Shown here: in pieces, positions 15,106 through 39,956 of the stretch
How positions within the stretch are numbered: position 1 is the stretch's first letter
Layout of the letters: every line of letters begins with the position of its first letter
Assembly (NCBI GenBank): GCA_947585965.1
Contig: CANPXK010000016.1
Location: forward strand, 1-40,069
DNA length: 40,069 bases
Origin: an uncultured Clostridia bacterium
Lineage (GTDB): Bacteria > Bacillota > Clostridia > Oscillospirales > Acutalibacteraceae
Direction: 5' to 3'
The notes under the pieces: model-generated
What the model saw: the letters and a program-made list of their open reading frames with translations, nothing else
What the model was told of the DNA's origin: nothing
Database searches by the model: none
Position numbers and translations under genes: made by a program

Positions 15106-15110
15106 GTAAC

Positions 15111-20778: not shown

Positions 20779-20786
20779 TATGGTCA

Positions 20787-20815
20787 ATAGACCCTTCACC
20801 TCGTTATGGGTCTAT
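20787..20815. repeat. Inverted repeat of unknown role in the gap before the operon
   Basis: ATAGACCC (20787-20794) and GGGTCTAT (20808-20815) are perfect arms around 13 bases, with no U-tract. The gap 20693-21086 otherwise holds the terminator at 20742, a weak 39-codon hydrophobic frame (20814-20933, no ribosome site) and the operon promoter. Confidence 0.5.
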
Positions 20816-20978
20816 GATAGCGTATACAAAACGAAAAAGGAATATTGAGGAGAAAAAATTTGTTTGTTTCATAATTGTGTTATTCGTCATACTTATTGCA
20901 AAGGTTTTCGTTTCTCTGTTGCGTTTACTTTGAAAAATGACGTTTATATTTTTGCCCTGAAATCGGTAATATACTTAA

Positions 20979-21007
20979 TTGACAAATTAATATAAAAGTT
21001 ATATAAT
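20979..21007 (+). promoter_or_regulatory. Consensus promoter of the ATPase/coiled-coil operon
   Basis: TTGACA (20979-20984), exactly 17 bases, TATAAT (21002-21007). Both boxes are perfect sigma-A consensus. The leader to the first gene is about 70 bases. No other good promoter is seen until the gap at 33811. Confidence 0.85.
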
Positions 21008-21086
21008 AAAGCTGTATTATTTTGTTCAAATATATCAAAATTATGATTGTGAATGATAACGAATTAAAATAAAGAGGATGATTGAT

Positions 21087-22814
21087 ATGGAATCAATTAA
21101 TAATTATGATTTTAAAATGTACTACGACAAGACCGTCAGTGAAGAGTCAGAAAGTATCTGTAGAAATAATCAATTTAAAATTAAGTACGATGATGCGGGT
21201 TATTACCTTCCCGATACTCAGAGCATTATTAAAATAAAAATAATTGATAGATTTAATTATGTCACACACGTTTCTTTCGTACTGGTAAACGACGGAATTG
21301 TTTCTTTTTCTTGTGATGGTTCAGAGAGAAACTGCAAAAAAGATTTCTGCTGTCACTGCCGTGCGGCTTATGAATATATACAAAGGGAAAATCTTTTGCC
21401 TATATACATACCGGCTGCTGCTGTTGATGCGGAATTTCAGAGCGAAAAACCGATAGATGCCGATATTGATGAAAAAATATCCGCAATTTCCGATATGCTA
21501 CCCTACCATGAAACCGTTTCGGATGATTTCAAAAGTAACGACTCCCCGGAAATTGATTATACACAAAATATTGAATGTGCTGATGAAAATTCCGAAGAAC
21601 AAAATATGCTGGAGAAAGAGCAGTCTTCCGAGGTGGACTTTACGCCAAAGAGAATGAGTATATTGCTTGGCAGAGATATGGATACAAACGAAAACGTATA
21701 TTTATTTCCGAATGATACAGATTGTGTTATGAACAATAATATGGGTATCATAGGTACAATGGGTACGGGAAAAACGCAGTTTACAAAATCACTTATAACA
21801 CAATTTTATCATAATTCATCCGATAATTATGACGGTTCTCCTGTAGGAGTGCTTATATTCGATTATAAGGGTGATTACAACGAAACCAAAAATGATTTTG
21901 TTCGTGCGACCCACGCAAGAATTATAAAACCGTATAAGATGCCGTTTAATCCCCTCTCACTTAATCTGAAAAAACATAACAAAGCATTGTTGCCAATGCA
22001 TACAGCTAATACATTTAAGGATACACTTTCAAAAGTATATAATTTGGGACCCAAGCAAGAAAATACACTGTTTGATTGTATGATGTCTGCCTACGAAGAA
22101 CAGAAAATATATGTTGACAACGAATTAAGCTGGAAAAGACCGACTCCGACATTTGATATGGTTTATCGCCAATATGAAAAAAGCAGTGCGTTTAATGATA
22201 ACGATAAGTTGGCAGTAGTAATGAAAAAGCTCAAGGGCTTTTCTATCTTTGCACCGGATCCTCTCAAGGCAGTTTCACTTTCCGAATTGCTCAAGGGTGT
22301 AGTTGTTATAGATATTTCTGATTATGACGAGGATATACAGAGCCTTGTTGTTGCAATAACTCTTGATCAGTTCTATGCCCAGATGCAAACATTCGGTTCA
22401 AGCAAAACCAATGGAAAATATCGTCAGATTAAGACTATTATTTTGGTTGATGAGGCGGATAACTTTATGAAAATGGGTTTTGCATCCCTGCGTAAGATTA
22501 TGAAGGAAGGTAGGGAATTCGGAGTGGGAACTATCCTGTCTACCCAGAGTCTTGCTCATTTTTGCGGCAGCGATGATGATTATTCAAAATATATTAATAC
22601 ATGGGTAATACATAATGTTAATGACCTGAATAGGAAAAATATTGAAGCAGTGCTGAATCAGACGCAAAAAGGCATGGGGTCTGAGGATTTGTTCCGGATT
22701 GTAAAAGAACTAAGAAAGCATGAGAGCGTTGTTAAAATATCTAATAATAATCCTGTTATTATGCATGATAAACCCTTTTGGGAATTATACAATGATATAT
22801 CGGGAGGGATTTGA
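21087..22814 (+). CDS. HerA/FtsK-like P-loop ATPase with N-terminal Cys/His cluster
   Basis: The protein is 575 residues. The ATG at 21087 is spaced correctly from AAGAGG; the ATG at 21078 overlaps it. The N-terminal domain (1-100) carries C76, C83, C88, C89, H90 and C91 in SFSCDGSERNCKKDFCCHC, resembling a SWIM-type zinc finger (the final CxH is present, the first CxC is altered). An acidic linker (about 120-185) follows. The ATPase domain has Walker A GTMGTGKT (223-230), the HerA/DUF87-like FDYKGDYNE (258-266), Walker B IILVDEAD (451-458) and STQS (485-488). Related proteins are hexameric DNA or protein translocases and helicase partners in phage-defence and conjugation loci. It is first in the operon and ends two bases before the Hsp70-like gene. 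The substrate is unknown. Confidence 0.85.
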   Translation: MESINNYDFKMYYDKTVSEESESICRNNQFKIKYDDAGYYLPDTQSIIKIKIIDRFNYVTHVSFVLVNDGIVSFSCDGSERNCKKDFCCHCRAAYEYIQRENLLPIYIPAAAVDAEFQSEKPIDADIDEKISAISDMLPYHETVSDDFKSNDSPEIDYTQNIECADENSEEQNMLEKEQSSEVDFTPKRMSILLGRDMDTNENVYLFPNDTDCVMNNNMGIIGTMGTGKTQFTKSLITQFYHNSSDNYDGSPVGVLIFDYKGDYNETKNDFVRATHARIIKPYKMPFNPLSLNLKKHNKALLPMHTANTFKDTLSKVYNLGPKQENTLFDCMMSAYEEQKIYVDNELSWKRPTPTFDMVYRQYEKSSAFNDNDKLAVVMKKLKGFSIFAPDPLKAVSLSELLKGVVVIDISDYDEDIQSLVVAITLDQFYAQMQTFGSSKTNGKYRQIKTIILVDEADNFMKMGFASLRKIMKEGREFGVGTILSTQSLAHFCGSDDDYSKYINTWVIHNVNDLNRKNIEAVLNQTQKGMGSEDLFRIVKELRKHESVVKISNNNPVIMHDKPFWELYNDISGGI

Positions 22815-22816
22815 AA

Positions 22817-24607
22817 ATGAAAATAGGAATAGATTTTGGCAGTACCTATTCATTAATTTCTACGTATGACGAGATATCTGATGATATCAAAGAATTGCAG
22901 CCGGATGGTTCGACAGCCGTTACACCGTCTTATCTGAGCATTGACAGTGACGGAGAAGTGTTGTATGGAAATAATGCAAAGCGAAAGCTGACGGATAATG
23001 CTTACCGCCATTTCTCCGGGTTTAAAATGATGCTTGTAGAGCAAAAAAGCGATTCTGTGGGGATACAGACTTTGCAAAAAAACGGCTATGTCGGAAGCTA
23101 CAGCCCAAGATATATCACGCAGCTATATCTCAGGGAGATGCTGGACGGTGTGCTTTCCGAAACGAGCAGTGCAGGACAGCTACCGGAAATCCGCGAAGGG
23201 TTTGAGCAGATATATATATGTGTCCCGGAATTGTGGTCAAGAAGTATTAAAAAAATGGATGGCTGTTATGCCCTTAGAGAAATTTTGAAGGATGATCTTG
23301 GGATTGAGAATGTCAATATTGTTATGGAGCCTGAGGCTGCAAGTGCCTATTTTGCATATAAATACGAAAAAAACACACACAAGAAATTTAACGGGTATTT
23401 GTTTTTAATAGATTTTGGCGGCGGAACTTTGGATGTTACGTTATCAGAGGTCAGATCCGACAACAGTGGTTCAGTTGAGATAAAAAATCTATGCAGTGAC
23501 GGAGCAGGTGAAAACCATGAAAACTGCTATGGTCAGACCGAATCCGGTCAGGCGGGGATGGCATATATGCAACGATTGGTACAAAATGTACTTAATGCTC
23601 ACGGTGTAAATGATATAGATATTTTATCCTCTGATTTTAAAGAAACCATCGTTGATGTGGAAAATGCCTTAAAAAGTCCGAAGAACGGTAAATCAATCAG
23701 GGATTTCTTTTCAAGATTCAACAATTTTGAAGATATGAAAAAAGTGATGAATCAGGGATATACCGATGAAAGTAATCGAAATAATATATTTATGCAGTTC
23801 AAATACGGCAGGGATAAATATGTCGTTACCTTTGCACGGCTTTTTGAAACATACAAACAAGTCATAGCAACGGAATTGAATGATGTAATTGTTAATATGT
23901 GCGATACTGCGAAGAGGTTTATTAAGAAGGATCCCCGTTCAATAGAGTCGGGCATGGATAACGATTTTAAGATCGCATTGGTAGGTGGGTTCGGTTCTTT
24001 CTATTTTGTGAGGAAGCAGATAGAGTCCATTTTTAAATTTGATGAAATGAACGATCCGAGAACAGAAGGGCTGACTGATAACGAAAATGAAAAGGCTATA
24101 TCATTCGGTGCGGCTCTGCTGGCTGCCGGAAAGGTAAAATTGAGAAGGACGGCACCGTATTCTCTTGGCTTGCAGACCATAGATCAGCAAAGACATAGAC
24201 GTCTTCATTACGCAATAAAATTCCACCAAGAAATCGTGGAGGATGAGATATGTTATATACGCTGGAAAGGACCGGATATAAAGGATGAATCACAGAATCC
24301 TCCTGCGGAATTCTTAGGATTACGAAGTAACATAAGTCAGTTTATTGTGGGTGATTCTCCGGATTTGAAAAAAGGACGTCCTATGTCTCTTAAGGCGGAA
24401 TATCTTGAAAAATTGAAAAACCTTCCGGCACAAGGAGTATGGCGAATTGGTTTTTCTATTGACGAAAACTATATTATCACAATGCACGTTGTTCCAAAGG
24501 ACGCTGGAAAGAACGACAGAGGACTTGAATATAAATTATCGAATTACGAAGAAATGTTCGATTTGCAGATGTCTGTTCAGCTTACGGACGGTGAGGAAGT
24601 AGTATGA
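22817..24607 (+). CDS. Hsp70/actin-fold ATPase (DnaK-like)
   Basis: The protein is 596 residues, with an ATG after GGGAGGG. The nucleotide-binding fold is complete. Phosphate-1 is KIGIDFGSTYSLISTY at the N-terminus. MEPEAASAYFAYKY corresponds to the EPTAAA segment of Hsp70. Phosphate-2 is FLIDFGGGTLDVTLSEV at about 197, and the adenosine motif is ALVGGFGSFYFVRKQIE near 390. After the ATPase domain a PYSLGLQT segment recalls the start of an Hsp70 substrate-binding domain. The rest (about 450-596) is not a normal SBD and has no helical lid that I recognise. It may be a chaperone-like switch dedicated to this operon rather than a housekeeping DnaK. It overlaps the next gene by four bases (ATGA). 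Confidence 0.85.
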   Translation: MKIGIDFGSTYSLISTYDEISDDIKELQPDGSTAVTPSYLSIDSDGEVLYGNNAKRKLTDNAYRHFSGFKMMLVEQKSDSVGIQTLQKNGYVGSYSPRYITQLYLREMLDGVLSETSSAGQLPEIREGFEQIYICVPELWSRSIKKMDGCYALREILKDDLGIENVNIVMEPEAASAYFAYKYEKNTHKKFNGYLFLIDFGGGTLDVTLSEVRSDNSGSVEIKNLCSDGAGENHENCYGQTESGQAGMAYMQRLVQNVLNAHGVNDIDILSSDFKETIVDVENALKSPKNGKSIRDFFSRFNNFEDMKKVMNQGYTDESNRNNIFMQFKYGRDKYVVTFARLFETYKQVIATELNDVIVNMCDTAKRFIKKDPRSIESGMDNDFKIALVGGFGSFYFVRKQIESIFKFDEMNDPRTEGLTDNENEKAISFGAALLAAGKVKLRRTAPYSLGLQTIDQQRHRRLHYAIKFHQEIVEDEICYIRWKGPDIKDESQNPPAEFLGLRSNISQFIVGDSPDLKKGRPMSLKAEYLEKLKNLPAQGVWRIGFSIDENYIITMHVVPKDAGKNDRGLEYKLSNYEEMFDLQMSVQLTDGEEVV

Positions 24608-27312
24608 TTAATTTTAAACGATTTGAAAGAGCCAACAATCTCCATAAAAGCAGTGAATATACAATATGTGACTTTTTGTATTTTGTCAAATGTGTGATGC
24701 TTGATATCGAAGATAATTGCGGGTCTATTGAGGAATGGTCGGTGGGGGATGAAGATTTATTCGGCGATTTACTGACTAACCAGTGCTATGTTCTTGGTCG
24801 GATTATGAATGTCGTACAAAAATGCCAAAATAATCCTAACAAGAGATTGGATGAGCTCAATCTTGATATCGGAAAGATGAAGAAACAGACAGAGCAGTAC
24901 AAAGATAAATGTAGGTCTGTTGCTGATATGGAAAAACAAAAGCAGGAGCTTGAACAGAAGCTGAGTGAATTAAATAAACAGAAGAAAAAGTATGATGAAC
25001 TGGATGAGAAGATCAAAAAAACAAAACAGGCTATCTCAAATGCGGATGGTTTTGATTTAGAAACAACAAAGAAGTTACTTGAAAAACTGGAGAGTGAGTT
25101 AAACAGAAAAACAAAAAATATTGACGAACTCACTAATAACATTAAAGATTGCCGGGAAAAGTGTAATGATGCTAAACGTCAAGAGGATAGCTTACAGCAG
25201 CAGCTTGATAAACTGAAAGCGGCATCAGAAAACACAAATAATACTTTGAATGAGCTTAAAACCGATGTAAGTAAAAAGGAACGCGAAAAAGAAGGGCTCG
25301 AGAAAAACATTCGCGCACTTAATGATGCCTTCAAAGCTTTGAATGGTGAATTGGCAGTATATGGAGACGTAATTGAAGGTTGTAAAAAAGCTTTCGAGGA
25401 GGAAAAAGACCATCTTTCACAAGAAAACAGAACCAAGATAGCTGATGTGGAAAAACTCGCACAGGATATTTTGGGACTTCGGGAGACACAGAAGACTCTA
25501 CAGGATCAAGCAGAGCAGTTGGAAAAGGATAAGAGTCAGCTGGAAAAGAGCGTAGAAACGGTCAAGGATCTGGTGGAGTTGCTGAATTGCTCGACAGATG
25601 AATATACGAACAGAATAGAGGGTTATTCGGTTATCCTAAGGTTTACTATGAGTGAACTATCTGAAACATATAGTGATCTGCTTGCCCATGTAGAATCGAT
25701 TGGAAAAGAAATAGGACAACTGCATATCTCTATCAAAAAGAAATCAGAGCTAAAGGATATGCTTGTTATGGAGTTGGAAGCACTCAGGAAAAATGAAGAT
25801 TCACTCCAGGCGGCGATAGATTCCCTGCAAAACTCAGAAGAAGATTTTTGTTGCAGAGTTGGGGACTATATACAAATACTTAATGAAACCCAAGGAAGTC
25901 TGTCGGAGCAATGCAGCAAAAAGCATACGGAAGCTGTATCCATGTGCCAAAAAATTCAGAAATTGCAAGAAGAGATAGGAATACTTGATAATAAAGTTCA
26001 TTGCAGTGAGGTCAAGGCTGAGGAATTGAAAAATGCAAAGAAGAATATTCTCGAAACTTCAGATCGTATCAACAAAATTATCAGTGGTCTTGACGGAGAT
26101 ATGTCGGAATTGGAAGAAATATTCCAGGGGCTTGACAGCAGAAAGACAGAACATATGCAAAAGGCAGAAAGTAAACTGGAAGAAGATTACCAAAGGCTGA
26201 ATGACGAATATAACCGGTTTTATTACGGCACTCTTAAAATATTGCTCGACAATAACAGAAAAGTAAACGAAAAGATAAAAAATGAAAATGAGGAATTGCA
26301 GACTGCTCAAAATACAAACAACGACCTGCAGGAGAAGTTGGATAAGTTGAATAATGAGGTTAGCCGGCTTGCAGTTAAAAATGAAGATCTTCGGGGTGAT
26401 ATTAACCGAAAAAATACTAATCTTTCCCGAGTTAAACAGGAGTATGATAAGTTATATCATGAGAATGAGACGATTAATGATAATATTGCAAGTCTGACAG
26501 CACGAAACGAACAGTTGGAAAAGAAATTGATACCTGAGGCAAATAAGTTTCTTGAAAGCTGTAGATCAATTACGGATTCTCACGAGAAAACCGTCTGGGA
26601 AAAGGTAGCGGAACTATGCAAGCTGATAGAGCAGCTTAATGTGGATCTTATGCGGGAAATGTCTTCATTTAACAAAAAAGTAACCGACGAACTTGAAAAG
26701 CTGACAAATATCAGAAAAGAGTATGGGGAAAAAATCAGCCGTATATCCGAATATGATGATGAAATTAAAGAAAAGCAGGCACAAATCTGCGAGCTTGAAG
26801 AGAAAAATGATAAGGAACAGCGTGAAGGTGCAATACAGCAGCTTAATGATAAAATCAACAAATTAAAAGAAGATATTGAAGCTAGAAAAGATGAGATAAA
26901 GTGTCTTGAAAAATCAATTAAAGAACTAACTGAAGAATATAATGGATTTAAGTCTAAGAAAGATGAGTTAGATAAGCAGAACCAATCTTTCACTGCTAAA
27001 AAAGATGAGCTGAAACTTAAGTGCAGTGAGATTGAAGAACTTCTGGGAGATAATTTCTCAAATAAGCTGAACGAAATCGAAGAGAGACTTAATTTTCTCC
27101 AACCGCTTAATAATAACTTGTCAAAAATGCTGGAGTATATTTCAAAAATTTCGGAAAAAGAGTATACAGAGTATACTATTCCTAAACAGCAGCGAGTGAA
27201 CGTATATAATCGTGCATTGAATGATTTGAATGGTGTTTTTACAGAAATACGAAAATGTCTTGCTGGAGCATCGAAGGAACTGTCTGATTGGATAAAATTA
27301 GAGGAGGAATAA
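24604..27312 (+). CDS. Long coiled-coil protein, SMC-like rod without ATPase heads
   Basis: The protein is 902 residues. The ATG overlaps the upstream stop as ATGA. A small globular N-terminus (1-75, including ICDFLYFVKCVMLDIED) is followed by nearly continuous Lys/Glu/Leu heptads from about 80 to 830, for example KQKQELEQKLSELNKQKKK. Several helix breaks contain Cys or aromatic residues, near 330-420. A short C-terminal segment ends SDWIKLEEE. There is no Walker A or ABC signature, so this is not an SMC or RecN ATPase but a structural rod or scaffold of possibly 100 nm. Translational coupling to the Hsp70-like gene suggests the two proteins act together. The family is not recognised. Confidence 0.8.
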   Translation: MINFKRFERANNLHKSSEYTICDFLYFVKCVMLDIEDNCGSIEEWSVGDEDLFGDLLTNQCYVLGRIMNVVQKCQNNPNKRLDELNLDIGKMKKQTEQYKDKCRSVADMEKQKQELEQKLSELNKQKKKYDELDEKIKKTKQAISNADGFDLETTKKLLEKLESELNRKTKNIDELTNNIKDCREKCNDAKRQEDSLQQQLDKLKAASENTNNTLNELKTDVSKKEREKEGLEKNIRALNDAFKALNGELAVYGDVIEGCKKAFEEEKDHLSQENRTKIADVEKLAQDILGLRETQKTLQDQAEQLEKDKSQLEKSVETVKDLVELLNCSTDEYTNRIEGYSVILRFTMSELSETYSDLLAHVESIGKEIGQLHISIKKKSELKDMLVMELEALRKNEDSLQAAIDSLQNSEEDFCCRVGDYIQILNETQGSLSEQCSKKHTEAVSMCQKIQKLQEEIGILDNKVHCSEVKAEELKNAKKNILETSDRINKIISGLDGDMSELEEIFQGLDSRKTEHMQKAESKLEEDYQRLNDEYNRFYYGTLKILLDNNRKVNEKIKNENEELQTAQNTNNDLQEKLDKLNNEVSRLAVKNEDLRGDINRKNTNLSRVKQEYDKLYHENETINDNIASLTARNEQLEKKLIPEANKFLESCRSITDSHEKTVWEKVAELCKLIEQLNVDLMREMSSFNKKVTDELEKLTNIRKEYGEKISRISEYDDEIKEKQAQICELEEKNDKEQREGAIQQLNDKINKLKEDIEARKDEIKCLEKSIKELTEEYNGFKSKKDELDKQNQSFTAKKDELKLKCSEIEELLGDNFSNKLNEIEERLNFLQPLNNNLSKMLEYISKISEKEYTEYTIPKQQRVNVYNRALNDLNGVFTEIRKCLAGASKELSDWIKLEEE

Positions 27313-27314
27313 TT

Positions 27315-27833
27315 ATGAGCAGTATTAAAAAATGTATGGTGTGTGGGTATCAATATGACGGGGATCAGCTTCCGAAATGTCCGGTATGTAAATTTCAGGA
27401 AATAAATATTCTTGGAGATTATGAGAAAGGACTTAAAGAACTGCAACCGATTATTTTACAGAAAAAACAGGGACTGGCAAATAGACTGCAAATCGGTATG
27501 AAAATCTTTCAATATGAGCTTGACGGTACAAAGTTAGTCGACAAGGGTGAATCAGTAGTGCTTTTTGACACTGTCACAACAGATGATAAAGTGCATTGGC
27601 TTGATGATCATCTGGAAACAGTCAGCACCTTGGATGTTCTGGATGCGGAAGTGTATGTGCAGCTGGATGACAAAACATATTTATTGAATTTAAAAACAAA
27701 TAATATGAAGAATGCGGATTACATACAGGTGGGTATAGCTATTGATATTGATTTTTGTATGCGAATGGTTGTGAAGGATGATTCCAATAATCTGACACAA
27801 TCTGAAAAGGTGTATATATTTAATGGGAGCTGA
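27315..27833 (+). CDS. Zinc-ribbon protein of unknown function
   Basis: The protein is 172 residues. The ATG at 27315 follows GAGGAGGAA; an earlier in-frame ATG overlaps the coiled-coil gene and is rejected. The N-terminus has a rubredoxin-like ribbon, CMVCGYQYDGDQLPKCPVC (two CxxC knuckles, residues 7-25), expected to bind one Zn or Fe. The remainder (about 45-172) is a beta-rich domain rich in Asp/Val with no motif I can name. It starts two bases after the coiled-coil gene and ends five bases before the next, so it is a core member of the unit. It might be an adaptor or a metal-stabilised structural part. Confidence 0.75.
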   Translation: MSSIKKCMVCGYQYDGDQLPKCPVCKFQEINILGDYEKGLKELQPIILQKKQGLANRLQIGMKIFQYELDGTKLVDKGESVVLFDTVTTDDKVHWLDDHLETVSTLDVLDAEVYVQLDDKTYLLNLKTNNMKNADYIQVGIAIDIDFCMRMVVKDDSNNLTQSEKVYIFNGS

Positions 27834-27838
27834 GTATT

Positions 27839-29362
27839 GTGGGGCATAGTTATGAATATAACTTACCGGAATTTTCCTGTGATAATTGGCTGCAAATTGT
27901 ATTTGCAGATGAAAAAGATTATTATTACACAAGTAGCTTGCTGCGTCTTGAGCTTAATCAGTATTTATGGCTGTCACTTCGTCAGAATCATGATGCTGTA
28001 TGGTTTGTTACAGTAAAAATGAAGGAGAAAACGGCGAAGGTACGGCATTATAAGGACAGCGTCAATGACCTTGAAATAGCCAAATTAAAAAATTTTTGGG
28101 GAGCAAAAAAAGCTTTTGACTGGATCATGGAACAATTGGATCAAAAGGATGAAAAGAAAAGACAAGCTTTCGTGTTAGATCAGGATTCTTTCAAAATCTT
28201 ATTTGAAGACAGGAAGTTGACCGATGAGAATAAAAACAGACTCAAAAATAATACACTGATTCTGCTGCTGCCGCCATCGGTGGATAAAACTAAAGAACTT
28301 CTGCTTGGAAGTCAGGCTTTTGATAATCTTGATGCCAAGTTTGTAATAAAAAATCTGCGAGAAAGCCAAGCGGAAAACAAGGATATTTATCTTACCCTGT
28401 GCAATAGGTGCAAGGATGTATGCCTGTTCCTGAATGAATTTACAACAGATAGAATGAAATGGATGTTGTATTATTCACTTATGAGCCATCCTGAAAGAGA
28501 GGTTGATTCCAACACGTTGAAATGTATGGCAGCCTATTTGACCGAGTATCTCAACAACAGATGTCTTCGGTGGAGTGAAGAAGATAGATTTTTCGACGAA
28601 GAAGATAGATCTTTCGACCCGGCAGGTGTTAGGTATAGAGATATTGAACAACGGCTGGCTACTAAAGAGGTGTGGAATACACTTGAACAACGTGTGTGTG
28701 AGATACTTAGCACCTATGAAGGTGACGTCAAAGATGAACGTGACGTCAGAAAGGCATTAAAGCAATATATGGAGCGTAAGAATATCAGCTATGGTAGGAA
28801 ACGTATCTATATGAAACAACCGACAACGAGTACTATAATGTCTTATTATCTGGATTTGGATCGGTATAATAAAAATATTGCCATGTCATCTATACCGGAG
28901 AATTTGCGGAAGATTGTGTTGGAAGCTTATGAAGAAATTTATCAGCTTGTCTATACTACCGTCAACTGTCAAGAAAATACAGAATGTAAAAAGACACTTG
29001 ATGATTTGCTAAGTCAGCTTAACAACCATCAGCGTGAACCGGAGATATATTTCCGTTATTTGCTTTGTATAGGTAAATGTATGAGTTGGATTTATGAAAG
29101 TAATAACGAACAATTGCAAAGCCGTGCGGATCTTTTGAAAGGATATATGAAAGTTATTCTTAATGTATTTGAGAATAACTGGGATGACGATGACGGTAAG
29201 CGTCAGGAAATCAGAGAAGAGGTTAAGAAACTGAAACTTGATGAGTGTGTATGGGCACGGGAATGGGATGAGGATAAAATTAGAAAAAAAATCAAGGAAT
29301 GTGGAAAGTTGACACTAGGAAGTTCAGGAAGAGTTAAAGGTGAATGGATGGTCTTTACATAA
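27839..29362 (+). CDS. Operon protein of unknown function (507 residues)
   Basis: I do not recognise this family. The likely start is GTG at 27839, with GGGAG about eight bases upstream. No in-frame ATG fits as well, because the first lies far inside. The N-terminal 95 residues look like a mixed alpha/beta domain rich in aromatics (DEKDYYYTSSLLRLELNQYL). The middle and C-terminal parts are mainly helical and charged, with a few Cys (LCNRCKDVC near 185) and many Trp/Tyr. No signal peptide, membrane helix, Walker motif or catalytic signature is evident. It lies five bases after the zinc-ribbon gene; an 80-base gap follows. Confidence 0.7.
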   Translation: MGHSYEYNLPEFSCDNWLQIVFADEKDYYYTSSLLRLELNQYLWLSLRQNHDAVWFVTVKMKEKTAKVRHYKDSVNDLEIAKLKNFWGAKKAFDWIMEQLDQKDEKKRQAFVLDQDSFKILFEDRKLTDENKNRLKNNTLILLLPPSVDKTKELLLGSQAFDNLDAKFVIKNLRESQAENKDIYLTLCNRCKDVCLFLNEFTTDRMKWMLYYSLMSHPEREVDSNTLKCMAAYLTEYLNNRCLRWSEEDRFFDEEDRSFDPAGVRYRDIEQRLATKEVWNTLEQRVCEILSTYEGDVKDERDVRKALKQYMERKNISYGRKRIYMKQPTTSTIMSYYLDLDRYNKNIAMSSIPENLRKIVLEAYEEIYQLVYTTVNCQENTECKKTLDDLLSQLNNHQREPEIYFRYLLCIGKCMSWIYESNNEQLQSRADLLKGYMKVILNVFENNWDDDDGKRQEIREEVKKLKLDECVWAREWDEDKIRKKIKECGKLTLGSSGRVKGEWMVFT

Positions 29363-29442
29363 TAAAACAATGGTACATATGACCTGCAAAGAGTATTTTT
29401 TGTCGGAATAGTATGTTCAGTGCAGAAAGGAGGTTGGAAGCA

Positions 29443-30441
29443 GTGGCTGGAAATAGACAGAAAAGAAAAAATTCATCGATCACTTGGTGTAACAATACTA
29501 ATGACAGTGCGCAGAATATGAATGAAGGCTTACAGGATAACGAAGATAAGCCGGATATACTCAGTGATTATACAACCTGTGAAGATATTGTAGAAATACT
29601 CGATGAAATTAATTGGGAAGAAAGCTCACTTTCCCGGGAATATATTGAAAAAAGAGAACTTAAGGAGTCTATAGAGTGGCTTACAAATAACCTGAAAGAT
29701 AGTGAGATACCGGATATTGATCCGAATGTACAAAAGATTAATCATCATATGATGGAGTTGGCATATCTATTTGACATAGCAGTACAAAGCGGCTCCGAAC
29801 TTGCAGCAATAGCAGCAAGGGCGGGTATGATGAATTCACGCAAAATACGCAGCGAACTGTTCAAGATACAAAAAGTGTTCCCAAAAAACTTTGATCGATA
29901 TATGGAGAACTGCGACAAGTATCTGAACTGTTATGTTTTATATACTTATGTTTGCAGTCAGGTTGATGAAATCCGGGATATTATAGCGAAATGTAAGAAT
30001 GCATTGGATGAGAAACAAGATCAGTATGAGCAAACATTGGCTGATGTTTCAAAAAACATCAAAACAGATGAGAACTTGCAGAAGGCGTTGATTACATTCA
30101 AGGACCAGACATATAACCAGACCTCTGGTATGTGGTCAAGAGAACTGCATGATCTTTTTGAGAAAATTGTCAGCCTGAGCATACAACGGTTCAACATTGA
30201 CTATGAAACTTTCCTGTTGAAATCGGAAGAGACAAAATACCACGAGAAATCTGCTATCTTGCAACAACTTCGAGCTACGCTGAAATTTAGCAAACCGAGT
30301 CCGGTGGTGGATCTTATGGAGAATATGGAAATGGTCTATAGGGATGTGCTGGATAAATCCAGAAAATCCGAGCAGGAATATACACATATGTTGGAAACAA
30401 TGGAACAGCTCAGTGAGGAAATGGGGCAAATTTCCGGTTGA
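29443..30441 (+). CDS. Helical protein, paralogue of the next gene
   Basis: The protein is 332 residues from GTG at 29443, which is nine bases after AAAGGAGG. The ATG at 29413 lies upstream of that site and is less likely. A polar N-terminus is followed by long amphipathic helices. Shared with the next protein, in the same order, are an ILDEINWEESSL segment, AAIAARAGM, RYMENCDKYL, DENLQKAL and LHDLFEKIVSLSIQ, so the two arose by duplication. It ends in a coiled-coil segment (MLETMEQLSEEMGQI). No enzymatic motif is seen. A structural or oligomer-forming role, perhaps as substrate of the downstream AAA protein, is inferred. Confidence 0.72.
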   Translation: MAGNRQKRKNSSITWCNNTNDSAQNMNEGLQDNEDKPDILSDYTTCEDIVEILDEINWEESSLSREYIEKRELKESIEWLTNNLKDSEIPDIDPNVQKINHHMMELAYLFDIAVQSGSELAAIAARAGMMNSRKIRSELFKIQKVFPKNFDRYMENCDKYLNCYVLYTYVCSQVDEIRDIIAKCKNALDEKQDQYEQTLADVSKNIKTDENLQKALITFKDQTYNQTSGMWSRELHDLFEKIVSLSIQRFNIDYETFLLKSEETKYHEKSAILQQLRATLKFSKPSPVVDLMENMEMVYRDVLDKSRKSEQEYTHMLETMEQLSEEMGQISG

Positions 30442-30502
30442 TATTATGAACAACCGGTTGAATTTGAAAAGTTAATTTATTTTTGGAAGGAGATTACTGA
30501 AA

Positions 30503-31735
30503 ATGGGATTAAAAAAATCAAGATTATCCGGAGATTCTATGACACCATCAAAAACCAATAAACTGAATGAGTTTTTTGATGGTATTAAATCTAAAAAGAA
30601 ACAGAGGAAATTAGCTGCAAAAAGAAATATCAGCAATAGCAATGCGGCAAATGAGAAAAAAATACTGGATGTATTGAGTGAAATTGATTTCAGCAACAGC
30701 AACCTCGATCCGGAGTTGTTGGAACACAAAACAATTTCAACACAAAATGTTGGAGATCTGGAGCAAACCAGAAACGAAGTGATGGAAAAAATCATCAGTA
30801 ATACGAAAAATTCCGGTCTAAAACTGAAGGAATTTGATACGAGGCTGTATGAAATTGCACTGGAATATAAAAACGCCATAAGCAACGGTCATAAGAACGC
30901 TGCATTTGCGGCAAGATCCGCTCTGCATATCGGAGTTGTCCAAATCAGAAACCAACTGGCTGATATTAGAGATGAATGGCGTCAGAATTATCTTGACGAT
31001 TGTACGGTATATATGGGTAAGTGGATTCAATTAATCGAAACTTGTATATCCTTGGATGCATCCATGGATTCTTATGAGAAAAGTACGAAGCAGCTTGAAA
31101 CCAAACTCGCTGATTTGGAAAGAAGGAAAAGCGAATATAATGATCGGATAAAAAATGACGATAACTTAATAAAGAGATTAAATATGGTCAGGGATAAACC
31201 GGTAGGAGAAACACTCACCGACCCGGCTCTGAGAAGATTGTTTGATGATTTGGTCGATGTGAAAATTCGTGACACAATGATACAGTTCGATTTGACGATG
31301 AACAAAATGCAGAAGCGTAAACAGGTTCAGTATGCTCAGCAGGTGGAAACGCAACGCATAAGTGTTGAAGATATGCCTATTCCGAAGGATCCCTACAGTT
31401 TTCAGAAATTTAAGGATACTGTGGATAGTATGTTTAGGGAGGCAACTAAAGTTGAAAATGAGTATGCTGAATTTTTGCAGCTGATTTCTGATGTTGAAGG
31501 AAGAGTCAATCAAATGGCTCATTCTCAGGCGGCAAAGATGGAGAATCAGATGGTGCAGGATCAGATAAGTAAGATGGTTGAGGCTGTCAATTCTATGAGT
31601 GAAAGCGAATTGGATAAAATGCCAACAAGAGAACTTCGGGAGAAGCTGGGTCTCAAGGTAGAAGAGGAACAGAAAGAAGAAAATCGGAATGAGAACACAG
31701 AAACCGAAGATGAAACTGAAGAAAATCTGAATTAA
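30503..31735 (+). CDS. Helical/coiled-coil protein, larger paralogue of the preceding gene
   Basis: The protein is 410 residues, with an ATG after GGAAGGAGAT. A basic N-terminus (KSKKKQRKLAAKRN) could contact nucleic acid or lipid. The shared core has VLSEIDFSNSNL, AAFAARSAL, NYLDDCTVYM, DDNLIKRL and LRRLFDDLVDVKIR, matching the previous gene in order. Extra C-terminal parts are a helix with MAHSQAAKMENQMVQDQ, the short segment MPTRELREKLGLKVEEE, and an acidic tail (about 380-410). The acidic tail after a short helix could be a recruitment motif for the AAA partner. The family is unknown to me. Confidence 0.75.
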   Translation: MGLKKSRLSGDSMTPSKTNKLNEFFDGIKSKKKQRKLAAKRNISNSNAANEKKILDVLSEIDFSNSNLDPELLEHKTISTQNVGDLEQTRNEVMEKIISNTKNSGLKLKEFDTRLYEIALEYKNAISNGHKNAAFAARSALHIGVVQIRNQLADIRDEWRQNYLDDCTVYMGKWIQLIETCISLDASMDSYEKSTKQLETKLADLERRKSEYNDRIKNDDNLIKRLNMVRDKPVGETLTDPALRRLFDDLVDVKIRDTMIQFDLTMNKMQKRKQVQYAQQVETQRISVEDMPIPKDPYSFQKFKDTVDSMFREATKVENEYAEFLQLISDVEGRVNQMAHSQAAKMENQMVQDQISKMVEAVNSMSESELDKMPTRELREKLGLKVEEEQKEENRNENTETEDETEENLN

Positions 31736-31755
31736 TAGTCAGGAGGTTATGAATT

Positions 31756-32487
31756 ATGGCTATGAGTGATGTAAAGAATAAGTTATCCGAAATACAAAAT
31801 TTTATCCAAAAAATGACGAAGGATCGCAGTTATAGGAAGGCAAATAAATTTATGGAGTGGAAAAATAAATATTCCTTTGAAATTGTCAAATGTGCAGGAG
31901 AGCTTGAAGTCTGCAGACAATCGCTTTCGGTAATTATCTCTGATGTTGCAAGAAATATTCGTTTGGGCAATTCAGAGGCAAGGGATGTAAGTCTTCAGGA
32001 AATGGAACTTGAAAACGCAACGATAGGTTATCTTTCTGTGGATGATGCTGCATTTGCATTGCAGTCCGTTGAGAGCTATGATGCGATAAACAGTGCATTT
32101 GAAATGATAAATATGGCAACGAAAAGATTGTATGGCGGCAGCCCTAAGGCAAATCAGAGAACTCTTTTCCGACATCCCGAGCGTGATGACTTTAAAAAAC
32201 AGATGGAAGAAGATGAAGTACAGGCTTCAAGAGTGGCAATATACAGGGAAATTAAGGATGATTTGATTACCACAGGTCGTATTGAAGACTGTATGAAAAA
32301 ATACCGTCAGAATAAGAAAAAGCAGCAGGAGGTCAGGAAGGTATCCGGTAAAACTGCGGAAGAATATGATGCACCCGAGTCCCCTGCCGTACCGCAGACT
32401 GTTTCAGAGGATGATGTGTCTGAAAGACGTGCTAAAATTGATATGGATAAGAATATGGCATTTAATAGTGCTCCGCCTGAAATATAA
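31756..32487 (+). CDS. Small charged helical protein with disordered C-terminus
   Basis: The protein is 243 residues, with AGGAGG nine bases before the ATG. The first 130 residues are predicted as long helices (NKLSEIQNFIQKM; ELEVCRQSLSVIISDVARNI; AAFALQSVESYDAINSAFEM). The middle is very basic and acidic (KKYRQNKKKQQEVRK). The last 50 residues are Pro/Ser/Glu-rich and end in MDKNMAFNSAPPEI. The layout (helical bundle, then a flexible tail just before a Vps4-like ATPase gene) is reminiscent of AAA substrates, but I see no sequence match to ESCRT-III. The next gene's ribosome site begins at its stop codon. Confidence 0.72.
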   Translation: MAMSDVKNKLSEIQNFIQKMTKDRSYRKANKFMEWKNKYSFEIVKCAGELEVCRQSLSVIISDVARNIRLGNSEARDVSLQEMELENATIGYLSVDDAAFALQSVESYDAINSAFEMINMATKRLYGGSPKANQRTLFRHPERDDFKKQMEEDEVQASRVAIYREIKDDLITTGRIEDCMKKYRQNKKKQQEVRKVSGKTAEEYDAPESPAVPQTVSEDDVSERRAKIDMDKNMAFNSAPPEI

Positions 32488-32502
32488 ATGGAGGTGTTTT
32501 TG

Positions 32503-33810
32503 TTGAGTAGATTTGAAGATAAGACTGTTGAAATCAGGCGGTGGGAAATCAAGGCCAATGATGAATTTCGTTTGAATAAAAGGCATACTGAAAAAGAATG
32601 GAATTATCTGCTTAAAGCCGCAGAATGCTGCAGAGAAGTTTCCGATATGTGCCGCGGATATCCCGATTTACAAAAAGTCTGGATGATGAAGTCAGAGTAT
32701 TTTGAAAAAAAGGCAGATCAGTCACGATTGGTGCTGGATGAGGAAAAAAAGACTTCGGCTGAAAAATCTGACACAGGACCGAAAGAGACGAAACGAACGG
32801 AAGAAGAAATCCAGTACACCGAAAGGGCGGAACGGCCGGAAGAGGATACCGGCGGTTTTACCTCAAGAAATGCATCCAAGGAAGTACCGCTTGAGATGAT
32901 AAAGGGATGGCATCAGGAAAAGCCTGATCACGGTCTGGATGAAGTAGTGGGAATGGATGATCTCAAAGAAGAAGTACGAAAGGTAATATTGGATAGTATA
33001 GGTTGGGAAAAGCTTGAGAAGAAATATAAAATGCCAACCTTGAAATCCTATATGTTCTACGGACCTTTCGGTACGGGTAAGACATATTTTGTGGAAGGCC
33101 TGGCGAAGGAACTTATGGACAGGGGATTCAAGTTTCTTAAGCTTGACGGAACGGATCTGCACGGAAAATATGTGGGCAGCGGAGAAAAGGCTTTGAAGGC
33201 GGCTTTTCAGGAAGCTATCGACTGTGCCCCGAGTTTGTTGTTTTTTGATGAATTTGATAACGTCTGTGTTCAAAGAGATAGCAAAACAACAGAAGGACAT
33301 GAAAAAAGGCTTACTAATGAGTTTATTCAGGCATTCAACGATTTGAAATCTTCCAATAAAATGGTTATATTTATGGCTGCTACAAACTACCCTGACAAAA
33401 TAGACGGTGCGATGTTGTCCAGAATTTTGTCGTTTTTCCTTATTCCTTTGCCGTCAGAAGAGATGAGAGAGAAGTACTTTGAAAATAACTTGAGAGCTAT
33501 TGTGTTGGAAGAAGGTGTCAGCTATAGTTATATGGCTGATCTTACGGATAATTACAGTGTACGTGATCTTGATAAGATTGCCATAGCTATGAAAACCGAA
33601 CTGTTTGATACTGCAAAATCACAATTCGGCATAAGAGATGAAAATGGTGTTTTTATTCTTGAGGAATCGGTGAAAAGAGTAGATGAAGCATTGTCAACAG
33701 GTAAGGTCAGACTGACTAAAGAACTTTTTGACAGAATTCTTGAAAAGAATCCGCCTGAGAAAAAGGACGACATTCTTGCATCTTTGAGGGCGTTTGAGGC
33801 AAAACAATAA
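32503..33810 (+). CDS. Vps4/katanin-like AAA ATPase with MIT-like N-terminal helices
   Basis: The protein is 435 residues from TTG at 32503, seven bases after GGAGGTG; the ATG at 32488 overlaps that site. The broken gene at 35155 starts with the related MSDLAERLKKIRNFE, which supports the choice. Residues about 30-80 form a three-helix, MIT-like unit (EWNYLLKAAECCREVSDMC, then KVWMMKSEYFEKKADQ). An acidic linker is followed by the AAA domain: VVGMDDLKEEV, Walker A GPFGTGKT (187-194), pore loop GKYVGSGEK (221-229), Walker B LLFFDEFD (245-252), sensor AATN, then SRILSFFLIPLPSEEM. This last segment lines up with the Arg-finger region and IPLP motif of Vps4, though one Arg is replaced. Such proteins form hexamers that pull on helical tails. 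Confidence 0.85.
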   Translation: MSRFEDKTVEIRRWEIKANDEFRLNKRHTEKEWNYLLKAAECCREVSDMCRGYPDLQKVWMMKSEYFEKKADQSRLVLDEEKKTSAEKSDTGPKETKRTEEEIQYTERAERPEEDTGGFTSRNASKEVPLEMIKGWHQEKPDHGLDEVVGMDDLKEEVRKVILDSIGWEKLEKKYKMPTLKSYMFYGPFGTGKTYFVEGLAKELMDRGFKFLKLDGTDLHGKYVGSGEKALKAAFQEAIDCAPSLLFFDEFDNVCVQRDSKTTEGHEKRLTNEFIQAFNDLKSSNKMVIFMAATNYPDKIDGAMLSRILSFFLIPLPSEEMREKYFENNLRAIVLEEGVSYSYMADLTDNYSVRDLDKIAIAMKTELFDTAKSQFGIRDENGVFILEESVKRVDEALSTGKVRLTKELFDRILEKNPPEKKDDILASLRAFEAKQ

Positions 33811-33849
33811 ATATGCCTATATATCATATCTGAAAAATAATATTGTTTT

Positions 33850-33878
33850 TTGACCGGAAAATAAAACTATTATTATAT
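33850..33878 (+). promoter_or_regulatory. Possible internal promoter before the degenerate AAA gene
   Basis: TTGACC (33850-33855), 17 bases, TTATAT (33873-33878). It lies in the only gap over 100 bases inside the operon. Confidence 0.4.
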
Positions 33879-33898
33879 ACAGGTATCGTATATCAATA

Positions 33899-33926
33899 CC
33901 CCTGTTGTTTCGCAATGCAGCAGGGG
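33899..33926 (+). terminator. Hairpin in the operon gap, possible attenuator
   Basis: CCCCTGTTG (33899-33907) pairs with CAGCAGGGG (33918-33926), with one wobble, around ten bases. AAGTATTTTAAC follows. It may terminate part of the transcription coming from upstream. Confidence 0.5.
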
Positions 33927-33955
33927 AAGTATTTTAACAAAAAAGCGGTGATATT

Positions 33956-35104
33956 TTGGATACAAAAGTGTATAAAGATATACTGAATGAAAATGTGAAG
34001 TTTATTTTAAAAAAATCAGAACTTGAGCGTAAAAAGCTTATGGATAAGGCGAAATTCCTTTTTGGGGACGGATTTCTTTGGAACAGTATCGTGAAAAAAA
34101 TTGTTTCTCAAATATCTATATCCTGTGGCGGAATGGTTTTCGCTGGTCCGGAGGGCTGTGGCAAACATTCTGCGGCTGCGGTGGCTATCAGTGAATTTAT
34201 AAACATAGTAAATAACCCGGATAATGTTGGTTTTTTATACTTAACAGGTAGCGATTTTAATTTTAACGAGCAAATTGTCGATGCAGACACTAAATATCGC
34301 TCGGAGCTTAAAGATGAGGATTATTGCTATGATATTATACATTTACATATTGAAAGTTTGATTAATGGGATATTAGATGAATTCGGAGATGTGTTCAACA
34401 ATAAATTTATTGTTGTAATGTTAGATGATATTCAAAAAAGCGAATACTGTGAATTGATATGTAAATGGGTAGCGTATAATTATAATATTATGCGTTTGGC
34501 TTACTTTGAGGGATCGAAGGAATATCCAAGAATGTTTGTATTTATCTTGACAGATGATCTGTCAAAGATACCGCATTTTTTGCGTGAAGAACTGATTCTG
34601 CATAAGATGGATCTTCCCGATGAAAGCGAGAGAAAGTTGTTTATATCAAATTATTGTAAATTTAAGGTATATTCGTTAGACGAGAAAATCATTGATGTTT
34701 TAATAAATGAATCGGCAAATCTGAATTATATGGAGATAAAGGATCTTGTTGATGCACTTTCAGGTATTAAAACAACCGATGAAAATGTTGTGAAAAAATT
34801 GGTCAAAACCATGCTTTTACGTCCGATGAAGAACGTTGGTGTTCCTGTTGTAAATTCGGGAGCCGGGGATTCTGTCGCATTATTGACAGCAGTGAATGAA
34901 ATGATGGATAAAAAGTTTGCGGAAAATCAGCCGCATCAATTGATTTTGAATAACATTCCGGATGGCATGGACAGTGATATGCAGGGATTTGCCGGAGAAA
35001 GACCTGATCCTGAAAGAATCAAAGAAGATGCAAAAAATCAACCTTGGAATGATATTTTAAAGTATGTAGGGGTGGATTTTGACGAGACAGTAAATCAATC
35101 ATAA
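33956..35104 (+). CDS. Degenerate AAA+ protein
   Basis: The protein is 382 residues if it begins at TTG 33956, with a weak GCGGTGA site. A start at residue 29 is possible but has a poorer site. The P-loop reads GPEGCGKH (64-71), with His in place of the Ser/Thr that binds Mg. Walker B reads VVMLDDIQ (153-160), with Asp for the catalytic Glu. These changes suggest weak or absent hydrolysis; a regulatory or structural AAA subunit is likely. A sensor-like FILTDD follows. The C-terminal lid is helical, and a flexible tail ends PWNDILKYVGVDFDETVNQS, a motif that reappears after the broken gene downstream. Confidence 0.78.
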   Translation: MDTKVYKDILNENVKFILKKSELERKKLMDKAKFLFGDGFLWNSIVKKIVSQISISCGGMVFAGPEGCGKHSAAAVAISEFINIVNNPDNVGFLYLTGSDFNFNEQIVDADTKYRSELKDEDYCYDIIHLHIESLINGILDEFGDVFNNKFIVVMLDDIQKSEYCELICKWVAYNYNIMRLAYFEGSKEYPRMFVFILTDDLSKIPHFLREELILHKMDLPDESERKLFISNYCKFKVYSLDEKIIDVLINESANLNYMEIKDLVDALSGIKTTDENVVKKLVKTMLLRPMKNVGVPVVNSGAGDSVALLTAVNEMMDKKFAENQPHQLILNNIPDGMDSDMQGFAGERPDPERIKEDAKNQPWNDILKYVGVDFDETVNQS

Positions 35105-35154
35105 GCCAAAGTAAAACATACTAAGGTGAACTATATAAGAACCGGAGGAGAAAT

Positions 35155-35689
35155 ATGAGTGATCTCGCAGAAAGGCTGAAGAAAATTAGAAACTTTGAGA
35201 AAAAAGCAGGTAAAACATTTTTCTCACAAAAAACATAGCATACAAGAACTGGAATATCTCAGGAAAGCAGCCGATTGTTATAGGGATATGGTTATTGCTT
35301 ATGCTCAGATGAGTTTGGCATTTTTTAATAGATATAATTTTATTGAAAAAAAGTTTCGTTCTGTCGAATCGGCTTTGGATAGAGAAAATAAACCTGTGAA
35401 AATATCAACTGATGTGTTAGAGGTAGCTTTAGAAATGTGTGGTATTAGTATGAAAGTACATGATTATTTAAAAGTGCTTGAGCCCTTAGAAGTTGATATT
35501 GAATATTACAAAGAGGATCTTATATCAAACATTAAGCAATTAAGACAGTCTGCAAAAACGATGACGTGGGATTCTTTGTTAAAGCAAAGTAATATTAATA
35601 TTTTAGATATTACAAAAAAGATATCTTAAAATGATTGTTTAAAGAATTTAGGATTGAATGTTGACGAGATAGTAAATCAATCATTGTAG
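35155..35689 (+). pseudogene. Broken MIT-like protein gene (frameshift and internal stop)
   Basis: ATG 35155, after ACCGGAGGAG, opens MSDLAERLKKIRNFEKKAG, homologous to the start of the AAA protein at 32503, but stops at 35236-35238. The reading continues in the +1 frame (open from about 35195 to 35629) with LEYLRKAADCYRDMVIAYA, the same MIT-like helices. Two A- or T-rich runs lie in the overlap, so a one-base indel is the likely cause. After the TAA at 35627-35629, the same frame goes on with NDCLKNLGLNVDEIVNQSL and ends at 35687-35689. This tail is homologous to the C-terminus of the preceding AAA protein. The gene thus has two lesions. Programmed recoding or a sequencing error are alternatives. 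The rest (about residues 70-140) is helical and unrecognised. Confidence 0.7.
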
Positions 35690-35821
35690 GTTTACAATAG
35701 ATATGTTACAGTAAGCAAAAAAAGGTAACGAATGGGAAGAATCTGTGTTACAGTTACGATATGTAAAATAAACATAAACCGGAAAGGATCCTGTTTGCTA
35801 TGAATACTATACATAAAAGAT

Positions 35822-38558: not shown

Positions 38559-39956
38559 GTGAAAGAAACAATAAAGACAATATGCAGACTGACAGAAGCG
38601 GATAAGAAATGTATCAAGAAAAAATATTTTAGTATCACACCACAGGTATGCGGATGTAAATACTTCGGCATGATACTAAGGAGTGACGGTACGACCGAAA
38701 TAATCAATACTGCCGGAAATGAGATAGATTATGACAAGGATAGCTGGAGCAATATTACAAAGCTGTATTCCGGAGAAGGACACATAGCAGGACTTCGTGC
38801 GGACGGAACTGTCGTTGCAATTGGCGATAACGGCAGAGGTCAGTGTGAAACAAGCGAATGGAATAATATAATTGATATATCCGCCGGTAACGGATATACA
38901 ATAGGGCTTACATCAGATGATAAATATTTTATTGCCGGCGGCTTTGAAAGTATAGACGATGAATCGGACGAAAGTGAATTAGAGATATCGGAAGTGCCGG
39001 AAAATATACAGAAATCTGAAATAAAAGAAAATACAGAGAAGTCAAAAATAAGTGTAACAGACGATACAAAGATAGAATATACGCCTGTTGATGATTTTAA
39101 GTATGAATACAATAATGACAATACAGTAACAATAACAAAATACGTAGGGAATTTTACCGAAGTAAATATTCCTCCCAAAATAGAAGACCGTGTTGTTACG
39201 AATATTGGTAAGGACACATTTAAATGGTGTAATAAAATTATAACTATAACAATCCCTGACAGTGTTACTTCAATAGGCGACAATGCTTTCAGTGGTTGCA
39301 GCAGTCTTACAAGCATAATAATACCGAACAGTGTTACTTCAATAGGAGAATTGGCTTTCGGAGGTTGCAGCAGTCTTACAAACATAACAATCCCTCACAG
39401 TGTTACTTCTATAGGGGATTTGGCTTTCGACAGTTGTAGCAGTCTTACAAGCATAACAATTCCAGACAGTGTTACTTCGATAGGAGGTGCCGCTTTCAGT
39501 GGCTGCACAAGTCTTACAAGCATAATAATCCCTGACAGTGTTACTTCAATAGACGACAGTGCTTTCAGTGGTTGTAGCAGTCTTACAAGCATAACAATAC
39601 CGGACAGTGTTACTTCGATAGGAGGTGCCGCTTTCGATGGCTGCACAAATCTTACAAGCATAACAATCCATGACAGTGTTATCTTAATAGGAGACAGTGC
39701 TTTTTATGGTTGTAGCAGTCTTGAAAGCATAACAATACCGGACAGTGTTACTTCGATAGGAGGTTTCGCTTTCAGTGGCTGCACAAGTCTTACAAATATA
39801 ACAATTCCGGACAGTGTTGCTAAAATGGGAAGTTATGTATTTTCCGGATGTTCGAGTTTAAAAACGATTTATATAGAAGGTAAAAAGTCAATACCTAATT
39901 CTTGGAACATTTATTGGGATGATAATAATTCAGCTAAAATAATCCGGAATGCATGA
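38559..39956 (+). CDS. LRR_5 protein with RCC1-like N-terminal repeats, no signal peptide
   Basis: The protein is 465 residues from GTG 38559, nine bases after GGAAAGG. The TTG at 38550 is too close to that site. Residues about 25-130 hold RCC1/BLIP-II-like repeats: WSNITKLYSGEGHIAGLRAD, GTVVAIGDNGRGQCE, then WNNIIDISAGNGYTIGL. An acidic linker (about 130-170) follows. LRR_5 units of 23 residues (CSSLTSITIPDSVTSIGGAA type) run from about 205 to 440. There is no signal peptide, membrane helix or anchor, unlike the other LRR_5 proteins here, so it is probably cytoplasmic or exported by another route. Its LRR consensus uses CSSL rather than CTGL, a separate branch of the family. Function unknown. 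Confidence 0.85.
   Translation: MKETIKTICRLTEADKKCIKKKYFSITPQVCGCKYFGMILRSDGTTEIINTAGNEIDYDKDSWSNITKLYSGEGHIAGLRADGTVVAIGDNGRGQCETSEWNNIIDISAGNGYTIGLTSDDKYFIAGGFESIDDESDESELEISEVPENIQKSEIKENTEKSKISVTDDTKIEYTPVDDFKYEYNNDNTVTITKYVGNFTEVNIPPKIEDRVVTNIGKDTFKWCNKIITITIPDSVTSIGDNAFSGCSSLTSIIIPNSVTSIGELAFGGCSSLTNITIPHSVTSIGDLAFDSCSSLTSITIPDSVTSIGGAAFSGCTSLTSIIIPDSVTSIDDSAFSGCSSLTSITIPDSVTSIGGAAFDGCTNLTSITIHDSVILIGDSAFYGCSSLESITIPDSVTSIGGFAFSGCTSLTNITIPDSVAKMGSYVFSGCSSLKTIYIEGKKSIPNSWNIYWDDNNSAKIIRNA

Follow-up and report, generated by a model that had tools for sequence, protein, structure and literature searches.

The 40,069-nucleotide contig analysed here (the window), from an uncultured Clostridia bacterium of the Acutalibacteraceae, carries a cassette of ten intact open reading frames (ORFs), A to J, which all run in the forward direction from 21078 or 21087 to 35104 and appear to encode a genuine, conserved multigene machine without a match to any named system. 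Its members include a HerA-type ATPase (A), an Hsp70-like ATPase (B), a coiled-coil rod (C), a zinc-ribbon protein (D), a protein without a recognised fold (E), three helical proteins (F, G and H) and a pair of AAA proteins (I and J). The first-pass annotation of this DNA had known of no bacterial system of such composition; none was found for the ten proteins in Pfam, NCBIfam or PADLOC, and none matching the cassette in the open-access PMC literature. We are evenly poised on the reading that the products of the operon form a single assembly machine driven by ATP, inherited as a patchily distributed block together with sensors and acting through a staged mechanism that includes a response to mobile DNA. 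The window is one whole contig (C16) of a 2.87-Mb genome in 196 contigs, the assembly being 97.6% complete.

As had been claimed, a perfect sigma-70 consensus promoter (TTGACA-17-TATAAT, 12 of 12 positions) precedes the block on the same strand at 20979..21007. It is the sole perfect site within 20600-36200, where promoter-like sites scoring at least 9 of 12 are no commoner than in shuffles (54 vs 53.7). The tight spacing also stands, with intervals of -25 to +61 nucleotides (nt) throughout, except for the 145 nt between I and J, and with one ATGA overlap at the junction of B and C (24604-24607). A terminator-like hairpin lies between I and J (33899-33926), so that expression of J is possibly lower or independent of the rest; hairpins of this type are not enriched in the region (9 vs 7.6 in shuffles). 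The earlier count of about 11 co-directional genes reduces to ten, as the eleventh, K, is disrupted, and the set itself is probably bigger than this block, since an RCC1/LRR gene farther downstream seems to belong to it.

Recurrence of the gene set in Clostridia

Full-length relatives of B occur in 3 of 150 genomes of the family, namely the window genome (G000) and two others (G106 and G100), which carry the same genes as the block in a changed order. A three-member alignment of B, compared with contigs of 84,980 species, each represented by a single genome, recovered at least 54 loci, a lower bound, as the scan was seeded by two short peptide patterns and covered non-Clostridia little. Nearly every one of these loci shows 28-41% identity over most of B, and all are titled Clostridia (Lachnospiraceae, Oscillospiraceae/Ruminococcus, Eubacterium, Clostridiales and similar), among which we take Onthomonas to belong. 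Many loci stop at contig ends, and presence was counted in the 29 with at least 9 kb after B. With genes called as naive ORFs (both plus-strand and stop-to-stop frames), with profiles built from the same loci (that of I can match J too), and with loci counted without dereplication (close ones include L063/L064/L094 and L091/L096), C was found in 29, D, E, H and I in 28 each, F/G in 24, and all of C, D, E, F, H and I together in 23. Across the 54 loci, B included, 368 of 368 profile hits fall on the strand of B. The recurrence, the agreement of strand and the occurrence in few genomes together establish a gene set that is conserved, co-directional and patchy; the homologues do co-occur in dozens of neighbourhoods across genomes, contrary to what the first-pass annotation had named as a refutation.

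F went undetected in five of the 29 loci (L074, L089, L091, L092, L096), all but the first of which have an unlabelled gene of 437-491 amino acids (aa) between D and H, and D went undetected in L079. In L074 (133-5540), B and the rod are joined by an enlarged D (328 aa), with no E, F/G, H or AAA in the 10 kb after B, which suggests a reduced or rearranged form. Anaeromassilibacillus sp. An172 (L066), at the other end, has a cassette with all core genes as open frames.

Origins in phages and plasmids were considered and rejected. In IMG/VR, the alignment of Hsp70-like proteins retrieved a single weak relative, at 22% identity. An AAA scan of the same resource gave at least 80 loci, in all of which the match starts no earlier than residue 116 and identity is 22-35%, and tblastn of the AAA protein matched 49 phage records, none covering 80% of the query (20 of the 49 listed). 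On the plasmid side, the Hsp70-like protein matched 21 records, of which the 20 listed cover at most 45% and are DnaK or HscC where annotated; in one that was inspected, dnaK adjoins grpE and dnaJ.

The core proteins

The earlier calls of HerA-like, Hsp70-like, AAA and zinc-ribbon proteins are all upheld by Pfam matches that exceed their cut-offs (DUF87/HerA, HSP70, AAA and a rubredoxin-like zinc ribbon). B (22811..24607) is an Hsp70-like ATPase (HSP70, 42.3 bits vs a cut-off of 20.6) with a nucleotide domain and a probable beta substrate domain. It keeps D8, K72, E173, D201 and T206 in 54 of 54 aligned sequences, residues that in DnaK serve the nucleotide site. Its C-terminal 150 residues, judged by eye, resemble landmarks of DnaK, and the protein is probably too short to hold a C-terminal lid. 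C (24604..27312) is a coiled-coil rod of 902 aa that opens with a conserved helical domain of about 80 residues; the rods of the different loci range from about 260 to 1070 aa and have this N-terminal domain in common, and a profile of it, derived from 46 of these rods, is found in 51 of 54 loci. D (27315..27833, in an ORF that opens at 27288) couples the rubredoxin-like zinc ribbon (RUBY_RBDX, 27.5 bits, cut-off 26.5) to a further domain and retains CxxC...CxxC in 41 of 41 sequences. E (27839..29362), present in 48 of 54 loci, has no convincing match in Pfam or PDB; at 1e-8 it is found among 398 genomes across the phylum in the window genome only and, as far as searched, appears specific to the system. 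A reading of E as a degenerate AAA is not claimed, hhalign of E against I giving a probability of 0.3 on a 0-100 scale.

I (32488..33810; AAA, 105.7 bits) is a classical AAA ATPase of the active type that carries a helical domain at its N-terminus. Its Walker A and Walker B motifs are intact in 31 of 31 sequences, and its arginine, in an [AW]Mx(D/S)R-type motif after the second region, is kept in 29 of 31 (L054 has serine, and L087 is masked there). J (33956..35104) shares the profile of I and is its predicted pseudo-ATPase partner: GxxGxGK[ST] occurs in 0 of 26 sequences, the P-loop mostly reading GxxGxG[KRQ][HR], with H or R at the position of the Mg-binding S/T in 25 and the motif missing in one. 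The two make up a conserved pair of intact and degenerate AAA proteins, and the degenerate AAA reported earlier is thus real, being degenerate in the relatives as well. The assignment of the motor to the Vps4/katanin type survives as far as classical AAA is concerned. The profile of I aligns with residues 2-358 of VPS4B (E 1.4e-50), ranked behind Cdc48 chains; because Cdc48/p97 chains outrank VPS4B, I is best placed, on its sequence, in the classical Cdc48/Vps4/PAN group, within which Vps4 identity is not demonstrable. A profile of its N-terminus (A10) matched no MIT chain in PDB. In PADLOC, I matches IetA at 1.4e-24, and the NCBIfam CDC48, PAN and CdvC models score above IetA.

Two side observations concern this pair. 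In L091, L092 and L096, I is extended at its C-terminus by a further domain of about 130 residues, and J too is enlarged (to about 550 aa in L091/L096), which suggests a distinct branch. Downstream of J in the window, K (35155..35629) opens with an ATG at its first position, preceded by a good ribosome site, and meets a stop after 27 codons, the remainder lying in another frame; its downstream part (35195-35629) weakly resembles the N-terminal domain of I (16.3 bits against A10 in a one-sequence test), and an intact function seems doubtful.

The helical proteins F (29413..30441) and G (30503..31735) are paralogues that match the same profile and diverge strongly, F/G proteins being 11-26% identical to the G of the window. 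G is modelled as all-helical (pLDDT 78.4), with an acidic C-terminal tail. H (31756..32487) is small and all-helical in its model, with a basic N-terminus and, in its family, an acidic C-terminus; the models are of a single H and a single G. A [YFLI][NS] motif, picked after inspecting the tails, lies within five residues of the C-terminus in 23 of 42 F/G proteins, whereas 2000 shuffles averaged 3.8 and reached 11 at most. The tails are net acidic in 30 of 33 H and 35 of 42 F/G sequences, a character that would make them fitting targets for an AAA ring or Hsp70. The top structural matches of F/G are designed helical repeats and coiled coils, and their weak Pfam and PDB matches (Occludin/tricellulin, Sec10) look like coiled-coil noise.

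A proposed staged machine and its alternatives

About 3 kb past the cassette lies a gene for an RCC1-repeat and BspA-type LRR protein, a likely sensor (38559..39956, forward strand; ORF opens at 38550), whose RCC1_2 match (38754-38843) is the sole one in the window genome. Its residues 2-127 are 42-44% identical to RCC1 proteins encoded 31-1291 bp from the cassette in four other loci (L071, L092, L095, L099). An RCC1 gene also directly adjoins the cassette in G106 and G100, both of which have a few more elsewhere in the genome; RCC1_2 is found in 0 of 14 control genomes. The RCC1/LRR gene of the window thus likely belongs to the system. Among 132 flanking proteins, Pfam matched RCC1_2 14 times, LRR_5 11, DUF285 6, PP2C 5, Pkinase 4 and VWA 3 (25 of the 156 families are shown, and RCC1 alone has a matched control, 3 genomes vs 14). 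Some RCC1 proteins beside the cassette elsewhere carry zinc ribbons, LRRs or kinase-like domains (partly by eye), and the parts of the TerY-P triad (kinase, PP2C and vWA) each occur in some flanks, with none among the 19 window proteins scanned.

Several arrangements in these flanks deserve separate mention. By eye, L071 (6438-8111), L083 (2421-4133) and L099 (6335-8026) appear to encode, beside the cassette, fusions of RCC1, coiled coil, zinc ribbon and kinase-like domains. Before the cassette in L091 and L096, upstream of E, two gene families, one of about 260 aa and one of 430-515 aa, are each represented twice, with a gene of about 600 aa between, and the 515-aa protein of L096 looks PP2C-like by eye, which suggests a signalling module. 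In L040 and L041 (G100, contig 8), the cassette adjoins a type I-B CRISPR-Cas locus (Cas8b, Cas5b, Cas3). The clustering in defence islands about which the first-pass annotation had asked is weakly favoured by this one case, set against few defence matches in the flanks.

The reading of the operon as one machine draws on the conservation of the block (368/368), the retained residues of Hsp70 (54/54), the intact I (31/31) and degenerate J (26/26), and the F/G tails (23/42), as well as the net acidity of H and F/G tails. It also draws on the DndH-type ATPase, the RCC1-type neighbours, the single RCC1 gene of the window genome, the patchiness (B in 3/150 and E in 1/398 genomes) and the CRISPR I-B neighbour. 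We picture a trigger that would be sensed by the RCC1/LRR and zinc-ribbon proteins and, in some genomes, by a kinase and phosphatase, with these sensors acting on Hsp70 and adaptors. Hsp70 would hold and then release F/G and H, with the rod as a scaffold or exchange factor, and the released subunits would polymerise. The I/J ring would grip the acidic tails and remodel or dismantle the polymer, and A, where present, would couple the assembly to DNA. The likeliest role for such a machine would be to respond, under regulatory control, to phages or to mobile DNA of other kinds; a conflict role is favoured by the DndH-type motor, the sensor genes nearby and the patchy pattern of inheritance. The earlier proposal, a Vps4-like motor and an Hsp70-like switch remodelling helical assemblies, fits the conserved core and the first rank of ESCRT-III for H, and needs amending as to the Vps4 identity.

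Several points weigh against this picture. No nuclease, protease, toxin or membrane pore is recognisable in the ten proteins by Pfam, PADLOC or NCBIfam, and hence no effector is identified. The protein contacts, the polymerisation and the recognition of tails are steps that we infer, and 19 of 42 F/G proteins lack the tail motif. A is dispensable, LRR proteins are common in the window genome anyway, and the relative of B on virus contigs is weak. Defence matches among the flanking proteins amount to mad3 3, mad6 3, mad8 2, MkoA 2 and BrxL 1 (25 of 36 matching families shown, with no matched control), and the matches to PD-T4-6, up to 4, are probably just kinases.

The strongest rival, which we regard as a minority possibility, is a bacterial ESCRT-III/Vps4-like machine serving membranes or the nucleoid rather than immunity, in which H, perhaps with F/G, would form filaments, I/J would remodel them, and Hsp70 and the rod would act as loaders. 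As in archaeal Cdv and bacterial PspA/Vipp1, an AAA motor here stands next to small helical proteins, and in structural comparison of the one H model the ESCRT-III protein CdvB2 ranked first. Sequence homology, however, was not found: the Snf7 profile has no match at H (the best in the genome, 11.6 bits, lies elsewhere), a negative of little weight, as this profile exceeds its cut-off in 0 of 14 control genomes, Sulfolobus included; hhalign shows no similarity of H to PspA, and the N-terminus of I yields no MIT match. The Hsp70, rod and zinc ribbon are likewise foreign to ESCRT. According to the available passages of one review, bacteria lack a clear Vps4 homologue (PMC7615534), and excerpts of two further papers leave open which ATPase serves bacterial ESCRT-III (PMC8281802, PMC11746142). 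If H polymerises and I/J remodels it, the pair would supply the Vps4-like partner for bacterial ESCRT-III-like polymers that those passages of the review note as absent. A bolder joint claim, which we think rather unlikely as a whole, would make H (perhaps with F/G) an ESCRT-III fold outside the PspA/Vipp1 line and I/J the missing remodeller, with Hsp70 as a gate, RCC1/LRR/kinase proteins as the trigger and, in some genomes, a DndH-type motor on DNA, all amounting to inducible filament-based immunity.

Less probable still is a proteostasis or stress disaggregase, in which Hsp70 and I/J would refold or extract clients picked by the zinc-ribbon and E adaptors. Both the Hsp70 and the classical AAA keep their active-site motifs, yet DnaJ, GrpE and a protease are unmatched by Pfam among the ten proteins, the helical F, G and H are co-inherited, and the distribution is as patchy as described above for B and E.

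We judge it improbable that the cassette derives from the Dnd restriction machinery and processes DNA, its other genes serving a DndH-like pump. The idea rests on A (21087..22814; the ORF opens at 21078, and 21087 is better positioned behind AAAGAGG), a protein with a SWIM-like zinc motif and a HerA/FtsK ATPase (DUF87, 44.1 bits). The HerA-like call of the first-pass annotation is thereby confirmed and refined, for residues 156-570 match positions 1274-1685 of the 1686 in the PADLOC DndH profile (E 3e-167), so that A is a stand-alone relative of the DndH C-terminal domain. Of 23 A sequences, 13 show the SWIM-like CxC...CxH motif; the A of the window deviates from the exact pattern. At 1e-30, DndH-type ATPase domains occur in 3 of the 150 family genomes, stand-alone in G000 and G106 and within a 1737-aa ORF in G053, to whose ATPase A is 55% identical over 389 residues. 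A was seen, however, in 17 of the 29 loci; of the 12 without it, 7 show at least 2 kb on either side (L058, L073, L075, L085, L086, L089, L099), and in the other 5 it could sit beyond the visible sequence. G100 has the core cassette and no A in its whole genome. Moreover, DndD has no match at 1e-20 in the A carriers G000 and G106, whereas G053 matches it, as does G100, whose cassette lacks A. Measured against DndFGH, A is the counterpart of DndH's C-terminal ATPase and has 578 aa vs 1389-1715 in the DndH models; the DndD match of the rod in PADLOC reflects coiled coil, and neither DndF nor DndG appears in the PADLOC matches listed for the ten proteins (for the rod, the best 25 of 33). The cassette as a Dnd system proper was rejected, DndD not being found and a full-length DndH being absent. 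Since A is not seen in part of the loci and is absent from G100, it is better seen as a borrowed, optional accessory motor, and the DNA translocation earlier ascribed to it would be accessory at most.

A chance grouping of unrelated genes, for which nothing speaks except the lack of a named system, is refuted by the recurrence of the block in dozens of loci and has a negligible probability.

Relation to named systems and neighbouring features

A partial likeness to IetAS is given by the PADLOC match of I to IetA. IetS is a protease, and no protease partner is found by Pfam among the ten cassette proteins. The systems nearest to the cassette in theme are the CoCoNuTs, which, in the excerpted text of PMC11090510, are built on a McrB GTPase and McrC homologue with RNases. 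As described there, type III-A combines coiled coils, an Hsp70-like unit of nucleotide- and substrate-binding domains, zinc ribbons and a kinase/PP2C/vWA switch, and variants add a Cdc48-like AAA, a HerA-like ATPase and LRRs. In contrast, none of the ten proteins has a Pfam match to McrB GTPase, McrC or RNase; the cassette's Hsp70 is a separate protein, and its core consists of F/G, H and the I/J pair. Next in likeness, on the portions available of PMC7159879, are the MoxR-vWA and GTPase-Hsp70-tubulin conflict systems, which likewise join chaperone-type NTPases to sensor repeats and in some cases include Hsp70. Their MoxR, vWA, TRAFAC GTPase, tubulin and STAND components are, however, all below the Pfam cut-off in the cassette.

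What sets the cassette apart is that it joins an Hsp70 to a rod, to small helical subunits and to two AAA proteins, one active and one inactive, in a set found repeatedly in gut and rumen Clostridia and apparently connected to sensors of the RCC1, LRR and kinase types. If immune in function, it would add a polymer-based mechanism to the gut Clostridia.

Between K and the RCC1 gene, 36255-38200 holds fragmented ORFs that by eye resemble transposase or IS remnants. The first 20 kb contains ilvB/ilvN-like genes and LRR/Big_2 proteins; a row of five large LRR_5/Big_2/CAP-type proteins occupies 4556-20692, the last of which combines long SEEP repeats with a weak match to a cell-wall anchor.

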